Positions 27,575 to 34,673 of a DNA stretch of 64,000 nucleotides are shown piece after piece; position 1 is the stretch's first letter, and the number at the start of each line of letters is the position of its first letter. Below the pieces are notes generated by a model. It saw only the letters and a program-made list of their open reading frames with translations, was not told where the DNA came from and searched no databases. Source of the DNA: Spirochaetia bacterium (GTDB lineage: Bacteria > Spirochaetota > Spirochaetia > Treponematales > Rectinemataceae); the NCBI GenBank assembly GCA_029975555.1, contig JARKOY010000174.1, positions 1 through 64,000 on the forward strand, read 5' to 3'. Made by a program: the position numbers and the translations under genes.

Positions 27575-27868
27575 TTAGCCTGTGCGTTGCAATAAGACAA
27601 ACTTGTTTCTGGAGGTCTGGCCCCGAAGCAGGCGAAGCGCCGAAGGGGCGGTGCCTAGAAACTCGGCGATCAGTTCCAGCACGGCCTCGTTTGCCTTGCC
27701 CCTTTCGGGGGCCGCAGAAACCTTGACGAGGAGCCGGCCGTTGCGCAACCCCGCCACGACGTTCTGCGGGGCGTGCGGCACGACGGTCACGGCAAGGACG
27801 GTGCCCTCTTTTTCCTGCCGAAGTGCTGGCTCGAGGTACCAGAGCTTGGCCTCAAGGTCATCCTGCAC
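27575..27868 (-). CDS. DUF167 (YggU/UPF0235) family protein
   Basis: A small protein of 97 residues, the normal size for the family, of unknown biochemical function. The core VTVVPHAPQNVVAGLRNGRLLVKVSAAPERGKANEAVLELIAEFLG is characteristic (VSAAPERGKANEA is the signature). I place the start at the GTG at 27868, which has AGAAAGGA 7 bases upstream and gives an 11-base overlap with the end of ligA; the longer frame upstream is ligA shadow. Confidence 0.88.
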   Translation of the reverse strand: MQDDLEAKLWYLEPALRQEKEGTVLAVTVVPHAPQNVVAGLRNGRLLVKVSAAPERGKANEAVLELIAEFLGTAPSALRLLRGQTSRNKFVLLQRTG

Positions 27869-29804
27869 GACCAGAGTCCTTTCTACCCAGCATCGCGAGG
27901 AACTGCGCCTCATCGATGATGCTGATGGAGAGTTCCTGCGCCCTGCGGTTTTTCTCCGAGCCCGAAGTGGGATCGTTAGTGACAAGATAATCGAGGTCCT
28001 TTGTCACGCTCGATCTTACAAATCCGCCGGCGTCTCTCACGAGTTTCTCGGCCTCAGCGCGCTTCATCGTGGCAAGTTCGCCTGTAAAACAAAAGTTTTT
28101 ACCTGCAACAGGACTTTTTTCTTCCGAAGCGGCGGTCATCGGCGGCCGAATACGCACACATCCCTTGTCCACGAGTTCGCGCATGTCCGCCTCCACGAGA
28201 CGCAGGCCTTGGTACAGCGCTTTGGCGGTGATCTCCGCGAAACCATCGATGTGCTCAAAATCGGACCAAGAGGCGAGAAGCAGCTTGTCCAGCGTGTCAT
28301 AGCCTGCGGCGACCAACTTCTCCGCCATGAGCACGCCGATTCCCTCAATGTCAAACCCCGCAACGAACTGGGCAAGGCTCACCTCTCTCTGTGCCCTAAT
28401 GTTGCGGATTATCTTCTGCGCGCTCTTATCGCCCATTCTCTCGAATGAGAGGAGGTCCTCCACCGTAAGCGAGTAGAGATCGGGGATACGCACGACCCTG
28501 CCGGCATCGAACAGCCTTCGCAGGAGCGCGGAACCGATATCTTTGATGTCGATGACGGAGAGCCACTTCTCCAGTCGGTGGTACGCCTTGCCAGGACACG
28601 CTGGATTCGGGCAGTAGAGACGCGTATCTTCGTCCACAAGCGGCGCCCCGCACAGCGAGCAGTGTGTCGGAATGGCAATAGGCGCAGCATCTGGCGGATT
28701 CTCCACGAGCGACTCTATTTTGGGGATGATTTCGCCCCGCTTAGTGATCACTACTTTAGATCTGATGCGCAGGTCCATGGCGCGGATCATCCCCGGGTTG
28801 GCGAGGTTCGCTCTCTGGACGGTGGTGCCCGCGAGGCGCACCGGTTCGACCAGACCTATCGGCGTCACAGATGTTCCGGATTCGCTCCATTCCACCCCAA
28901 CAAGCGTCGTCACCGCCTCTTCGGGACTGAACTTAAAGGCTATCTGAAGTTCTGGCCTGAGCTTGTTCGCATCCTCGGGGTCGATCCTGTCCCCCTTCAC
29001 CACGAGCCCGTCGATGTCGTACGGGAGGCTTGCCCGCAGATCCATGATTTTCGCCCGATACGCGACCACCTCTTCGGGGCTCTTGCACTCTGTCGTCGGC
29101 ACGACATGAAAGCCCATTCGCTCAAGCCAGGCAATCTTTTCCCGCTCTGTCGAAAAGGGAGAACCCGAAGGCACAAAACCCAGCGCATCGTAACAGATGA
29201 TGTCGAGGTCCTCGGCCCCTTTGCCATCCTTGCGCTTCATGAGCCCATTGGCCGCATTCCGGCAATTCGCCTTGTCCGCATATTTCTCCGCATGAGTCGT
29301 CCTGGACATGAGCACTTCGCCGCGCACGGCTCCCGTGAACGGTTCTGGGAGTTCCCTTGGGACGCCGTTCATGCGCACGACATTCTGAGTGATGTCATCG
29401 CCGATCTCTCCATCTCCCCTCGTGACGCCTCGCACAAAGCGCCCCTCGTCATACTGCAGCTCCATGCTAGCCCCGTCGAGCTTGTACTGGACAAGGTAGA
29501 GCCCAAAACTCATCTTTGCCGCCCATGCGAGGAATGATCCCGGATCAGCGGCCTTGGAGAGGCTTCCCATGGTCATTCGGTGCCTATATTTAGGCCAACG
29601 CTCTGAGCGGTCTGCACCGACAGAAGCCAACAGGGCATTTTCAGGGTCGATCGAGGCGAGTTCGTCCCAGAGCGCATCGAATTCCTCGTCCGAGATTTCA
29701 GGCTCGCCGTTGTAATAGAGCTCTTGGTGATGCCGAATCAAGGCCTCCAATTCTCTGACGCGCGAGGCGATTGCATCATCTTTTCCGCGTACTGTGTCCG
29801 ACAT
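27858..29804 (-). CDS. ligA: NAD-dependent DNA ligase LigA
   Basis: LigA seals nicks in replication and repair. The adenylated lysine is Lys108 in the KxDG motif (YKLDGASMEL). The OB-fold is followed by a four-Cys zinc site (CSLCG and YCPNPACPGK, about 375-400), a helix-hairpin-helix region, and a BRCT domain at the C-terminus (AGKNFCFTGELATMKRAEAEKLV). At 648 residues it is near full length. A consensus promoter places the transcription start on the ATG at 29804. The NusG-paralogue gene diverges from it across a 149-bp gap. Confidence 0.97.
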   Translation of the reverse strand: MSDTVRGKDDAIASRVRELEALIRHHQELYYNGEPEISDEEFDALWDELASIDPENALLASVGADRSERWPKYRHRMTMGSLSKAADPGSFLAWAAKMSFGLYLVQYKLDGASMELQYDEGRFVRGVTRGDGEIGDDITQNVVRMNGVPRELPEPFTGAVRGEVLMSRTTHAEKYADKANCRNAANGLMKRKDGKGAEDLDIICYDALGFVPSGSPFSTEREKIAWLERMGFHVVPTTECKSPEEVVAYRAKIMDLRASLPYDIDGLVVKGDRIDPEDANKLRPELQIAFKFSPEEAVTTLVGVEWSESGTSVTPIGLVEPVRLAGTTVQRANLANPGMIRAMDLRIRSKVVITKRGEIIPKIESLVENPPDAAPIAIPTHCSLCGAPLVDEDTRLYCPNPACPGKAYHRLEKWLSVIDIKDIGSALLRRLFDAGRVVRIPDLYSLTVEDLLSFERMGDKSAQKIIRNIRAQREVSLAQFVAGFDIEGIGVLMAEKLVAAGYDTLDKLLLASWSDFEHIDGFAEITAKALYQGLRLVEADMRELVDKGCVRIRPPMTAASEEKSPVAGKNFCFTGELATMKRAEAEKLVRDAGGFVRSSVTKDLDYLVTNDPTSGSEKNRRAQELSISIIDEAQFLAMLGRKDSGRAG

Positions 29805-29810
29805 ACGCTA

Positions 29811-29840
29811 ATACTATCGGCATCCATGCAGCGTTGTCAA
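29811..29840 (-). promoter_or_regulatory. ligA promoter, predicted leaderless
   Basis: On the minus strand TTGACA (29840-29835, full consensus), an 18-nt spacer and TAGTAT (29816-29811) are followed by six bases and then the ligA ATG at 29804. No Shine-Dalgarno sequence exists. Confidence 0.65.
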
Positions 29841-29917: not shown

Positions 29918-29947
29918 CTGACTGATGGGTTGAGAATGTGCTATGCT
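29918..29947 (+). promoter_or_regulatory. Promoter of the NusG-paralogue operon, predicted leaderless
   Basis: CTGACT (29918-29923), an 18-nt spacer and TATGCT (29942-29947) are followed by six bases and the ATG at 29954. The -35 box is a partial match. No ribosome-binding site precedes the ATG. Confidence 0.5.
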
Positions 29948-29953
29948 TCGATC

Positions 29954-30472
29954 ATGCGCTATTTTGCGATTCAGGTTGCGACTCGCAAGGAACAGGAATG
30001 GCTGGAACGAATTCAGGGCCAATTAAAGGATGTCCGATTCCACAAAATAATGAAAAAAATGTTCATAAGAAGAAAGGGAAAGACAAAACTCGAAGAGGCG
30101 CCTCTCTTTCCAGGATACATCTTTTTCGAATATCGCGATGACGAACTGCCGACAAACATCATCCACGAGATACGACATTCTCAATTCTTTGTCCGATTTC
30201 TGCCGAACAATGAATCTCCGCACCCTTTGAATACTCGCGACAGCGAAATCATCCGCCATTTCATTCACTTCGGCAGCCTCATTCCCCCATCCCTGGTAAA
30301 ATTCGAGGAGGATCAAAAGATCAGGGTGATAGAGGGCCCGCTTCAGGGCATCGAGGGTTTTATCGTCAGGGTGAACCGCCGAAAACACCGCGCAAAAGTC
30401 AGACTGATCATCGCAGAATCCGTCATGGTCCTCGATCTGGCATTCGAGGTCATGGAGGCTGAGACCGTATGA
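29954..30472 (+). CDS. NusG paralogue (NGN-KOW, RfaH/LoaP-like)
   Basis: A 172-residue protein with an NGN domain (MRYFAIQVATRKEQEWLERI, then EAPLFPGYIFFEYRDD, the typical PGY motif) and a C-terminal KOW domain (FEEDQKIRVIEGPLQGIEGFIVRVNRRKHRAKVRL, in part). It is unlikely to be housekeeping nusG, which sits next to secE and L11. NusG paralogues usually antiterminate specific operons. Here it heads an operon with three xanthine-dehydrogenase-like genes, overlapping the first by four bases. I use the ATG at 29954, where a leaderless transcript would begin; the frame opens further upstream at 29771 without support. Confidence 0.85.
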   Translation: MRYFAIQVATRKEQEWLERIQGQLKDVRFHKIMKKMFIRRKGKTKLEEAPLFPGYIFFEYRDDELPTNIIHEIRHSQFFVRFLPNNESPHPLNTRDSEIIRHFIHFGSLIPPSLVKFEEDQKIRVIEGPLQGIEGFIVRVNRRKHRAKVRLIIAESVMVLDLAFEVMEAETV

Positions 30473-32544
30473 AAAGCAATGAATCGGTCGCGTTTGAGCA
30501 GCTCTCCGCGCCTGGCATGCTCTACGCGTGCATGGTCCGTACGGTTTCAGGCACAGGACAGATCCTTGCGATCAAAACTCCACCTTTGCCTTCTGGCTAT
30601 AGTCTGATCACCGCAGATCAACTTCCTTTCAAAAATGAACTCTGGATAGACGACATTCCGATTCCCTTGTTTGCGTCAAAATCCACCTCATACATAGGGG
30701 AGGCCGTGGGCCTCATCACAGGGCCGGATCCGCTGATGGTCGAAGAGCTGGCCTCAACCTCGCTGGTCGAATGTGAGGAACGCTCACCCACGACCGACTG
30801 GCACGCCTTTTCTTCTTCCGACATCGCCGCAAGAATCGATTTTTCTCGGGGACAGAAGCCCACGGCTGAGCAGACCGAGGGCGCAGCCCCCAAAACCCTC
30901 GAATTCAATTCTTATCTGAACATCGAGCCGCATGAGCTGACCTTCCACAGTGGTATCGGAGCGATCGCCGAATGGGATTACGACAAGCTGAAACTGGCAT
31001 GCCCTACCCTCTGGCCGGAACATACGCGCACCTGCATTGCCCGGATGCTGGGGGCATCCGTGGAGGATATCGAAATCTCCATGCTCCAGATGCACGACAG
31101 CTCAGAGATGTACTGCTGGTATCCGTCCATGCTCGCAGCCAGGGCCGCCGTCGCGGCGTGGGTCTTTAAAAAACCAGTTAAGCTCATCGTCTCGATTAAA
31201 CGGGAAAGAAAATACCTGCCCCGTATTCATGGAATATCCCTCCACGTACGATCCACTTGGTCAAAGGATACTCGCAGGCTCCTGCACGTAGACTGCCGTT
31301 TTGCGATCCCTGTCGGGGCATATCCCATATTGGCCAAGCTTCTTCTGGAAAAAACGGTGCGTTTTGCCGCAAGCAGTATTCCAGAAACGCCCCTTTCCAT
31401 CGTCGGGTTTGCGGTAAGGACCAACACGGTACCCATGGGAGCAGTTGAAAGTATATCCACGGCGGCTCTCTACGGCATGATCGAAGCCCACATCGCACGG
31501 GCAGCAAGGGCCATGGATTGTGATACCCTGGAACTCACGCAGTCGGTGTTTTTCAAAAGGGAGTCATCAAAAGCATCCCAGAAACGTCCGAACCGAAACG
31601 CCGAAAAAGAAAACGCCGCCATAAAAATCGCCAGACCACTGCTGCAGCGGACAGATTTTTATCGCAAATATGCGGCATACGAGCAGATATACAAAAGAAA
31701 TCCGGGTGAAAAAGAGACGACGCTCCGCGCAATCTCCTTCTCCACGGCATACCAGAATTCTCAAATTCTTTTGCCCTCTGCGGCGAATAAGGCCCAAATT
31801 CAACTGATGCTCGACAGAAACCTCAGGGCCGTGCTCGAATCTGATGCAGCCTACTCTTCGGAGCGCCTGAAGACAGCCCTCAAGCTCCAAATTTCTCAGC
31901 ATCTCAAGATACCGTCGGGACACATCGCGTTTGAAAATACACAGCAAGCGCATCCTGGGGCGATTCCTTTAATCTCTTCCTCGGGCATGGCGATACTGAG
32001 CGACCTCGTGCGGCGGGCGAGCGACCGCATCCAGCGCATGCGATTCAGAGAAGGGCTGCCGCTCACCGTTCGCACGTATTCTCTAGTAAAGCATGATGAG
32101 CCACTGGAGAAAATCTCAAAAAGTCTTTTGCGCCCCTCGATCGGCGCCGCGATTCTGGAAGTCGAATACGATACCAGAACCGCAATGATGCAGCATGTGC
32201 GACTGAATATTTCGGCGTATGTGGGGAAAATCCTTTCGCCCGCCCATGCGACATCCGCGATTCGCGCTGCGAGCCTCGAAGCTCTCCGCGCATGCCTTAT
32301 AGGCATGCACCCCGAACACGGAACCTTCAACGATGTGTATGCATCAATACTCTCCCAGGCCGACATCCGCGTGGACTTAATCGACGATGAAAAAGCCTCT
32401 GTATCCCGCCCTCTTGGGGACCTTGCCTATGCCCTTGTGCTCTCTTGTTTCTTGCAAGTCCTTCAGCAGTTGCGCGATTCCAATAGATCACTCCTCCCTT
32501 TTAGACCTGCTTCATCGATTTCCGTATGGGGAGATCGGCAATGA
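30469..32544 (+). CDS. Xanthine dehydrogenase large-subunit homologue lacking molybdenum-site residues
   Basis: A 691-residue protein that aligns by eye with the molybdopterin-binding subunit of the xanthine oxidase family: KSTSYIGEAVGLITGPDPLMVEELA (71-95) is the usual entry domain, and AARAAVAAWVFKKPVKLIVSIKRE (223-246) and MEAH-like IEAHIARAARAMD are recognisable. The cofactor-binding parts are lost. The glycine loop (GGGFGGK in the family) reads LQMHDSSEM (206-214), the GAFRGFG motif reads GAVESIS, and the C-terminal GVGE catalytic Glu region reads SVSR with Arg647 in its place. Family membership is fairly clear; catalysis as a hydroxylase is unlikely. It overlaps its neighbours by four bases on each side. 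Confidence 0.78.
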   Translation: MKSNESVAFEQLSAPGMLYACMVRTVSGTGQILAIKTPPLPSGYSLITADQLPFKNELWIDDIPIPLFASKSTSYIGEAVGLITGPDPLMVEELASTSLVECEERSPTTDWHAFSSSDIAARIDFSRGQKPTAEQTEGAAPKTLEFNSYLNIEPHELTFHSGIGAIAEWDYDKLKLACPTLWPEHTRTCIARMLGASVEDIEISMLQMHDSSEMYCWYPSMLAARAAVAAWVFKKPVKLIVSIKRERKYLPRIHGISLHVRSTWSKDTRRLLHVDCRFAIPVGAYPILAKLLLEKTVRFAASSIPETPLSIVGFAVRTNTVPMGAVESISTAALYGMIEAHIARAARAMDCDTLELTQSVFFKRESSKASQKRPNRNAEKENAAIKIARPLLQRTDFYRKYAAYEQIYKRNPGEKETTLRAISFSTAYQNSQILLPSAANKAQIQLMLDRNLRAVLESDAAYSSERLKTALKLQISQHLKIPSGHIAFENTQQAHPGAIPLISSSGMAILSDLVRRASDRIQRMRFREGLPLTVRTYSLVKHDEPLEKISKSLLRPSIGAAILEVEYDTRTAMMQHVRLNISAYVGKILSPAHATSAIRAASLEALRACLIGMHPEHGTFNDVYASILSQADIRVDLIDDEKASVSRPLGDLAYALVLSCFLQVLQQLRDSNRSLLPFRPASSISVWGDRQ

Positions 32545-33020
32545 ATATAGAATTTACACTGAATGGCAGCGTTCAAAAAGTGACCATCACCAGCGTCGAG
32601 CGGGCCCTCGATGTGCTCGCTCGACAGTGCGGCATAAAAAGCCTTTCAGGCACATGCTTCGAGGGGCAGTGCGGGAACTGCCTTGTTCTTTTCGACGGCA
32701 AGCCAGTCTACAGCTGCCTTATGCCCGCATTCATGTTGCGCGACCATAGGATCGAAACGACAGAATACTTCACGAAGACGCGGGAGTACAGTCTTTTGTA
32801 CTCCGAACTGACCAAAGAAGGAAGGTCGCTGTGCTCCTCCTGCCACAGTGGAATTATGCTCATGGGGATGGTCCTCGTCCGCAGTGCACCAACCCCGACG
32901 AGAGATGAAATCTTCCGCACACTGTCGAACGTGCACTGCGACAGCATCAGCCCCGACGATTTTGCAGATGCAGTGCTAAAGACAATCCAGCATCTGACAA
33001 CAGCGAGAAAAATACCATGA
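32541..33020 (+). CDS. Xanthine dehydrogenase-type [2Fe-2S] subunit with an incomplete second cluster
   Basis: A 159-residue small subunit. The plant-ferredoxin-type cluster is intact: Cys39, Cys44, Cys47 and Cys59 (GTCFEGQCGNCLV...YSC). The second, helical cluster normally has CxxC and CRC; here Cys98 and Cys101 (CSSCHSG) and Cys133 remain but the fourth ligand is Ser135 (HCDSISP instead of LCRCTGY). The second cluster is the one next to the molybdenum site, so its decay agrees with the loss of that site in the large subunit. The start ATG at 32541 overlaps the preceding stop (ATGA). Confidence 0.85.
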   Translation: MNIEFTLNGSVQKVTITSVERALDVLARQCGIKSLSGTCFEGQCGNCLVLFDGKPVYSCLMPAFMLRDHRIETTEYFTKTREYSLLYSELTKEGRSLCSSCHSGIMLMGMVLVRSAPTPTRDEIFRTLSNVHCDSISPDDFADAVLKTIQHLTTARKIP

Positions 33021-33850
33021 ACCTCAGCGAAATTCACTACCCGCGCACCCTGCAGGAACTCATGCTTCTCCTCGAACGAGAGCGGAACGTCCAAATAGTG
33101 GCCGGCGGAACCACCTTTGGCTGTATTCAGACCTCGCGCTATCTCTCGTTCGAGCCATCGATCGTGTATGTTCACCACATTCCGGAGCTCAGGTCGATCC
33201 ACAAGACAGAACGCATGATATCCTTCGGCGCGGCCTGCACCCTCAATGAACTTGAACATGTATACCCTTTTGAACATGAACAGGCCAAAAACCTGCTCCA
33301 TGCCATCGGAACTCCTGCGGTCCGGAATATCGCGACGATCGGAGGCCACCTCATGTATGAGAGGCGGTTTTTGAGTCTGTGGGCGCTCCTCGCATGCCTC
33401 GACGCCGAACTCGAATTCAGAACCGCTTCAAAGGCGAGCACAAAAAACATTTGGTATTTGGCCGACGAAACAGGCTTACCCCTTCTTGAACCCGGTAGAC
33501 TGTTGACAAGAATCAGAATTCCACTGCAATCCATAGATCATCTGTTCATACAACGGATCGGGGGGAGCGTATTCCCCTATGGGGACGGGGCCTGTCTCGT
33601 CTCCGCGGCGACCATCGACCGCCGCACGATTTCGAATTTTAAGCTGGTCATCGCCGGTGCCCGCGCGTACAGGAATTATGATGCCGAGCAGAGAATCATC
33701 GCCGCCCCTCATCCTTTGCCGGCAAGAATCATGCAGACTGTCATGAGAATGTATGCGGAGAGCCTGCGTAAAACCAATTTCTGGAACGTTGAGGTTCTTT
33801 TACCGCTCATTTCTGAGGCGCTGGAGGGGATCCAGCGATCCACTGTATAA
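33017..33850 (+). CDS. Xanthine dehydrogenase-type FAD-binding subunit
   Basis: A 277-residue homologue of the medium (CoxM/XdhB) subunit. The two FAD-binding loops are still present: VAGGTTFG (about 32-39, family AGGTDL) and ATIGGHL (about 107-113, family ATIGGN). The C-terminal CO_deh_flav_C-like part follows. Flavin binding therefore looks retained although the partner subunit has lost its molybdenum site. Four-base overlap with the [2Fe-2S] gene shows co-translation. Confidence 0.85.
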   Translation: MNLSEIHYPRTLQELMLLLERERNVQIVAGGTTFGCIQTSRYLSFEPSIVYVHHIPELRSIHKTERMISFGAACTLNELEHVYPFEHEQAKNLLHAIGTPAVRNIATIGGHLMYERRFLSLWALLACLDAELEFRTASKASTKNIWYLADETGLPLLEPGRLLTRIRIPLQSIDHLFIQRIGGSVFPYGDGACLVSAATIDRRTISNFKLVIAGARAYRNYDAEQRIIAAPHPLPARIMQTVMRMYAESLRKTNFWNVEVLLPLISEALEGIQRSTV

Positions 33851-33872: not shown

Positions 33873-34673
33873 ATGACAGAAAGACTGGAGCGCCGGGGAA
33901 GGCTTTTTCTCATCCCGACACCGCTGGCCCCTTATTCGCCTCAGAACTGGGAGCCACAACGCCTGTGTAGGATGATTGCTCCCAGCATCCTCGAGCGGCT
34001 GAGCCACATCTCGCTCTATGTGGTCGAGTCGGAAAAATCGGCCATACGCTTTCTCTCCAGGGTGCTGCCTCAGGACAGCTTCGCCAAGGTCTGTTTTTTA
34101 TTGCTCAATGAACACTCGACAGTCCATGATCTCGAAGCGCCTCTTGCGGCGCTGAAGGAGGGGACTGACTGCGCGATACTCTCTGAGGCGGGTCTACCCT
34201 GCATTGCAGACCCCGGCGCCGCCCTGGTTGCAGCCGCACACCGTGAGAACATAAGGGTAGTCCCGCTTGGGAACGACAGTTCTCTGCTCATGGCGCTCGC
34301 AGCATCGGGGCTCAACGGTCAACAATTCAGCTTTTTAGGGTACCTTCCGGTACGCGATGAGGAGCTGCGGAAAAAGCTCGCCTCCGAGGGCCTCGCAGCA
34401 CTGCGCGACGGAGCGGCGAGAATTTTTATCGAAACGCCGTATCGAAATGCGAGGGCTCTCGAAGCCTGTACAGAGGTCTTGCCGGAAACGCTCCACCTCT
34501 GCTGCGCCTCCGGACTCGGCACAGAAGAGCCCACGGTCCTCTCCATGCCGGTATCGAGGTGGAAAGCTGAGACCCCGGCAGCGCCTCAAGCGCCTGCGGT
34601 GTTCTGTTTCGGATTGCCAGCAAGGCTTGTAGAAAAGGGTAAACGCGTGAGGAAGCCGGGGACCCGCCTATGA
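33873..34673 (+). CDS. SAM-dependent methyltransferase, tetrapyrrole-methylase/RsmI-like
   Basis: A 266-residue protein with the outline of the RsmI class that methylates 16S rRNA or related substrates: RLFLIPTPLAP (10-20), ISLYVVESEKSAIRFL (45-60), the cofactor-region ILSEAGLPCIADPGAALVAAAH (102-123), VPLGNDSSLLMALAASGL and FSFLGYLP. It departs from genuine RsmI in the N-terminal GTPIGNL motif (here IPTPLAPYS), so it may be a paralogue. The ATG at 33873 has GGGGGGT upstream. It follows the FAD subunit by 22 bases and may share its transcript; a functional link is not evident. Confidence 0.8.
   Translation: MTERLERRGRLFLIPTPLAPYSPQNWEPQRLCRMIAPSILERLSHISLYVVESEKSAIRFLSRVLPQDSFAKVCFLLLNEHSTVHDLEAPLAALKEGTDCAILSEAGLPCIADPGAALVAAAHRENIRVVPLGNDSSLLMALAASGLNGQQFSFLGYLPVRDEELRKKLASEGLAALRDGAARIFIETPYRNARALEACTEVLPETLHLCCASGLGTEEPTVLSMPVSRWKAETPAAPQAPAVFCFGLPARLVEKGKRVRKPGTRL

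Follow-up and report, generated by a model that had tools for sequence, protein, structure and literature searches.

The window, which is the whole stretch of 64,000 nucleotides of Spirochaetia bacterium that was analysed (GenBank assembly GCA_029975555.1, contig JARKOY010000174.1), carries an operon related to the xanthine dehydrogenases (XDH). Judging from the comparison of sequences, its products probably form a molybdopterin-free FAD/[2Fe-2S] complex of the XDH fold, with a pocket that would be repurposed in the core lineages and eroded in the lineage of the window. The loss of the molybdenum site is ancient and class-wide, and not particular to the operon of the window. A whole bacterial class appears to keep the architecture of a molybdenum enzyme without the metal site, even where the cofactor cannot be made.

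Gene organization of the locus

Four genes were found on the forward strand in the order NusG, large, [2Fe-2S] and FAD subunit, each neighbouring pair sharing 4 bp according to the ORF coordinates. Together with the family matches, these overlaps are in accordance with the first-pass annotation, made from the letters alone, which had described overlapping genes for a NusG-type factor and three homologues of XDH subunits. The NusG paralogue is LoaP-like (29954..30472, +; 172 aa, with in-frame starts possible further upstream) and scored 39.7 bits against PF02357, 114.8 bits against the NCBIfam LoaP model (NF033641), below the curated cut-off of 125, 55.8 bits against nusG and 33.9 bits against RfaH. 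The XDH-like large subunit without molybdenum-cofactor motifs (30469..32544, +; 691 aa) matched MoCoBD_1 with 53.8 bits, the [2Fe-2S] subunit (32541..33020, +; ORF open from 32526) matched XdhC models with 67 bits, and the FAD subunit (33017..33850, +; 277 aa) matched FAD_binding_5 with 111.7 bits. The downstream neighbour is rsmI, encoding a 16S rRNA methyltransferase (33873..34673, +; TIGR00096, 83 bits), whose linkage to the operon is restricted by synteny to families f1, f2 and f4. Upstream and divergent is a ligA-type DNA ligase gene (27858..29804, -), named from its sequence and outside the system.

In flagellate relatives (loci L042, L045, L048, L058, L067, L070 and others), NusG is preceded by a divergently oriented gene whose product is a secreted protein, with a C-terminal SPOR domain by Pfam match in L070 and L067. 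The heptamer TATCGGC (reverse GCCGATA, resembling a sigma28 -10 element) was present in the intergenic region of 27 of the 55 genomes, compared with 2% in shuffled sequences; one copy of this type is kept beside ligA at 29814-29821, an 8-mer not above chance in the window alone. At loci L263 and L264 (genomes G411 and G510, of two sister families outside the order), dnaE, encoding DNA polymerase III alpha, is located 3' of the operon.

Loss of the molybdenum site in the large subunit

Alignment and a re-reading of the motifs gave LQMHDSSEM (residues 206-214; 31084..31110, +) where GGGFGGK was expected and GAVESIS (324-330; 31438..31458, +) where GAFRGFG was expected, both exactly as first reported. 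The alignment also placed DAAYSSERL (459-467; 31843..31869, +) at the EMGQG loop, GQG being the fourth lost landmark, and PTLWP (179-183; 31003..31017, +) at the Q767-type loop, which is STQ in XDH and TQWP in most relatives; this Gln is changed to Leu in the window. The catalytic Glu had been read as SVSR with Arg647 in place of GVGE, which is off by four residues. When the subunit is aligned with the canonical XDHs encoded in the same genome, and likewise in a profile match to the XDH of R. capsulatus, this loop falls at RPLGDLAY (647-654; 32407..32430, +), with Asp651 (PLGD) at the Glu position. Relatives often still have Glu there (GIGELPF), and mostly GxxxDGKLWYPS at the GGGFGGK position.

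The motif GG(G/A)FGGK, the Arg of FRGFG and GQG were retained in none of the 92 operon-type large subunits aligned, confirming that the site is lost; 15 canonical large subunits of the same phylum in the same alignment keep the molybdenum motifs with the usual variants. The AF2 model of the large subunit (pLDDT 85, pTM 0.86) was matched by Foldseek to xanthine oxidase (3etr_C) with a TM score of 0.83 and 16% identity, and profile matches were obtained to 3hrd, 1jro and 1t3q. Both an intact molybdenum site elsewhere in the protein and decay of the operon were looked for, and neither was found; the former is rejected on the basis of the profile match, the 92-sequence alignment and the genomes without MoaA, MoaC and MoeA.

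Molybdenum-cofactor genes

The check for cofactor synthesis genes proposed in the first-pass annotation found both MoaC and MoeA in the genome of the window, which also encodes four canonical MoCoBD_1 large subunits elsewhere (G000, contigs C137, C50, C124 and C43); because of these genes, this genome alone cannot settle the need for molybdopterin. MoaC was detected in 107 of the 294 genomes of the order (57 of the 181 of good quality) and MoeA in 2 of 36 genomes tested. Among the searched genomes, MoaA was absent from G012, G043, G240, G002, G013, G142, G025, G037 and G014, of which G012, G013, G002, G043, G240 and G142 consist of one contig each and are 94-100% complete. MoaA, MoaC and MoeA are all missing from G012, G043, G240, G002, G013 and others, which nevertheless keep the complex, and this argues that it works without molybdopterin.

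Binding of molybdopterin through other residues would be consistent with the fact that many core members still have the Q767-type Gln and the catalytic Glu, and with the MoaC and MoeA of the window genome, but it is hardly credible, since genomes that lack MoaA, MoaC and MoeA have conserved pockets of the core type and GGGFGGK, the FRGFG Arg and GQG are gone throughout the alignment (92/92).

Iron-sulfur clusters, FAD loops and pocket

The molybdopterin-free complex would consist of three subunits: one with FAD, one with two [2Fe-2S] clusters, and a large one whose former molybdenum domain has lost the cofactor site. In the core members (n = 49, comprising family f1 without g1, the genus of the window, and families f2, f4 and f5), all 8/8 iron-sulfur cysteines were kept in 49/49, and the pocket loops TQWP, LDGK, FxGxG and GIGELPF were more conserved than the other columns (p = 7.5e-8). 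These cysteines and the distinct conserved pocket argue for a flavin/iron-sulfur complex whose former cofactor site has been put to a new use. Most FAD loops in the alignment are retained apart from isolated differences, and those of the window are AGGT and ATIGG, as previously noted. In the core lineages, FAD and the two [2Fe-2S] clusters would exchange electrons with each other and with a substrate or cofactor in the repurposed pocket, presumably lined by the loops TQWP, LDGK-WYPS, FxGxG and GIGELPF.

The genus of the window represents a derived state, with an eroded pocket, one iron-sulfur Cys lost, and the sugar genes and flagellin gone. The [2Fe-2S] subunit of the window has 4/4 Cys of cluster I and 3/4 of cluster II. 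Throughout g1, cluster I is kept, full cluster II is found in only 2/7 members, and pocket identity to the consensus is 0.29, compared with about 0.8 in the core. In family f3, both clusters are kept in 16/25, and the Treponema pallidum-like genome G013 has 0/4 cluster-I cysteines; cluster ligands are also lost in G411 and G525. Pocket erosion and cluster erosion were correlated (Spearman 0.46, computed across related genomes and uncorrected for kinship).

The loss of ligands in several f3 genomes and in g1 indicates that the complex does not require electron transfer in every lineage. The first-pass view that the complex has another job is supported. Electron transfer, one of the suggested roles, is plausible in the core members, given their eight cysteines and conserved pocket; in the window genus, the lost cluster-II Cys and pocket consensus make it doubtful that electrons reach a substrate site. 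In the lineage of the window and some members of the Treponema family, the final electron step has probably been lost or altered, and the complex may survive with a reduced or structural role.

A non-redox scaffold or regulatory complex in the whole class, in which the fold would be a binding platform and the remaining clusters structural, is unlikely, although it would account for the persistence of proteins that have repeatedly lost cluster ligands (f3, g1, G411 and G525) and for the low omega of g1 after loss of the pocket loops. Against it stand the full set of cluster cysteines and the conserved pocket of the core members, and the wide retention of the FAD loops.

Selection on the operon

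Values of omega (NG86) were calculated against the two nearest relatives, G081 and G069, the more distant members of g1 being saturated at synonymous sites. They were 0.13-0.15 for the large subunit, 0.12-0.21 for the [2Fe-2S] subunit and 0.12-0.14 for the FAD subunit; NusG gave 0.20 against G081 and 0.06 against the NusG fragment of G069. The housekeeping genes ligA, argS and mfd gave 0.08-0.11 with the same relatives. All four genes of the operon are under purifying selection, looser than that on the housekeeping genes. The longer branch of g1 (1.2), a dN above that of housekeeping genes and the occurrence of NusG in two ORFs in G069 would fit XDH relics becoming pseudogenes in the genus of the window. 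Such decay is very improbable, with omega at 0.12-0.21 for the three subunits, no stops among the large-subunit homologues listed in the order search, and retention throughout the order, including a reduced genome of 1.14 Mb; the view that the complex is maintained is borne out by the same selection and retention.

Distribution and phylogeny

A match to the large subunit was present in 281 of the 294 Treponematales genomes (178/181 of good quality, 82/83 genera), a count from a single-protein search in which a few weak matches may be canonical XDHs. This occurrence and the fold match indicate that the locus is not due to chance. Holders by profile search were Treponema and Spirochaetaceae, and the same genes were found in other families of Spirochaetia. 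In the maximum-likelihood tree, a branch with a support of 100 separated all operon-type large subunits from the canonical XDHs; the tree has several long branches and its internal order outside Treponematales is unsure. The molybdenum-free state is ancestral to the sampled operon-bearing Spirochaetia.

Genome G013 is a reduced genome in a single contig of 1,139,633 bases, with the large-subunit homologue at 87 kb. It resembles that of T. pallidum, and the complex is thus apparently present in the syphilis bacterium. Somewhat more tentatively, the complex could represent an ancient, class-wide branch of the xanthine oxidase (XO) family without molybdopterin, in which FAD, two [2Fe-2S] clusters and a re-built pocket would catalyse a different redox reaction, and which would have descendants even in this T. 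pallidum-like genome. In the literature searched, no published account of the molybdenum loss was found, which is no proof of novelty, and nothing was found on T. pallidum TP0077-0081 beyond annotation.

Operon context and the NusG paralogue

A search for the NusG-XDH gene order in other spirochaetes, proposed in the first-pass annotation, mostly found NusG-CapD-DegT-Large-FeS-FAD, the usual order by synteny in the majority of genomes, which is common to other Spirochaetia and represents the ancestral operon. According to family searches, CapD is a Polysacc_synt_2/PseB-like 4,6-dehydratase and DegT a PseC-like aminotransferase. This sugar pair is missing in g1, g4, g11 and g14, which form one clade (support 99) and in which NusG abuts the large subunit; the adjacency is therefore secondary. 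The NusG paralogue had been thought to be dedicated to the XDH genes. This pairing is rejected, as CapD and DegT stand between NusG and the large subunit in most genomes: the paralogue belongs to the sugar operon, as is usual for LoaP-type factors, and in the window it is a remnant after CapD and DegT dropped out. In part of f3, including G013, which has a single NusG, there is no NusG at the locus. The XDH trio persists where CapD-DegT and, in some f3 genomes, NusG have been lost; its function can therefore not be read from the operon context.

The LoaP family matched 17/17 operon NusGs scanned with the lowest E-value of any family (best E 2.6e-44), and the genome of the window has a second, canonical-scoring NusG on contig C113. 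LoaP genes adjoin polysaccharide or secondary-metabolite operons and have been reported from Spirochaetota (PMC12691694). The LoaP/NusG protein would act in cis as a processive antiterminator of the sugar operon, and that of the window would now serve the XDH genes only. In the three groups examined, the region upstream of NusG showed no conserved RNA fold, and the 3 terminators found in the operon, against 5.1 expected, were not above chance. At locus L037 (5571-6124, G069), a frameshift or an assembly error divides the NusG paralogue into two ORFs, and at L090 (8117-8650, G125), NusG and CapD lie in inverted orientation with respect to the large-subunit gene.

CapD, DegT and flagellin

Of the 51 genomes tested, 30 have flagellin. 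A CapD ortholog (at least 54% identity) was found in 29/30 flagellin-positive and 0/21 flagellin-negative genomes, the exception being the flagellin-positive G522, with a CapD match of only 46%. The distribution implies three or more independent losses (a sub-clade of f1, G496 and G525), and the XDH trio was kept in all; CapD tracks flagellin, and the trio does not track flagella. This co-occurrence makes CapD and DegT candidate flagellin-glycan genes, which presumably make the flagellin sugar. Relocation of CapD within the window genome was considered and rejected, as G000 and G069 have only paralogues with 41-46% identity and none at ortholog level. In these aflagellate genomes, the FlaA1/CapD-type paralogues (G000, C172; G069, C19) probably serve other polysaccharides.

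The flagellins of T. denticola carry a novel 450.2 Da glycan required for filament assembly, according to a passage of PMC9481697 citing Kurniyati 2017, and for glycosylated flagellins in T. pallidum a 1998 paper is cited in a passage of PMC13144727. The operon supplies CapD and DegT as candidates for the T. denticola glycan, and their co-occurrence with flagellin makes the idea directly testable. The same glycan, and the close linkage of the trio to CapD and DegT in one operon throughout Spirochaetia, would suit the complex being an enzyme of the CapD-DegT nucleotide-sugar pathway, for example oxidising or reducing an amino sugar destined for flagellin. This is improbable, as the trio is kept in aflagellate genomes without CapD (g1, g4, g11, g14, G496 and G525).

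Comparison with known systems

The operon NusGs scanned all match the family of LoaP, the specialised NusG paralogue of Bacillota, Actinomycetota and Spirochaetota; they differ in that the window copy falls just under the cut-off, the operon carries XDH-like genes and antitermination is a predicted activity. CapD and DegT are of the same families as the PseB/FlaA1-type 4,6-dehydratase and PseC/DegT pairs of flagellin-sugar synthesis and likewise co-occur with flagellin, but do not reach the equivalog cut-offs of PseB and PseC, and the window lacks the pair.

T. pallidum TPASS_0079 and TPASS_0081 are annotated as 'xanthine dehydrogenase', that is, as molybdoprotein (PMC4403809). By operon position they are apparently the same large and FAD genes, whereas the matching genome G013 lacks both the molybdenum motifs and the molybdenum-cofactor genes; such an annotation would mislead metabolic models.

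The three-subunit bacterial molybdenum hydroxylases of the XO family (PucCDE, XdhABC, Qor and nicotinate dehydrogenase) have the same large, two-cluster [2Fe-2S] and FAD subunits, and share the large-subunit fold with the spirochaete complex (TM 0.83). The spirochaete complex differs from them in having no molybdenum-cofactor motifs, in its occurrence in genomes without molybdenum-cofactor biosynthesis and in its operon context.
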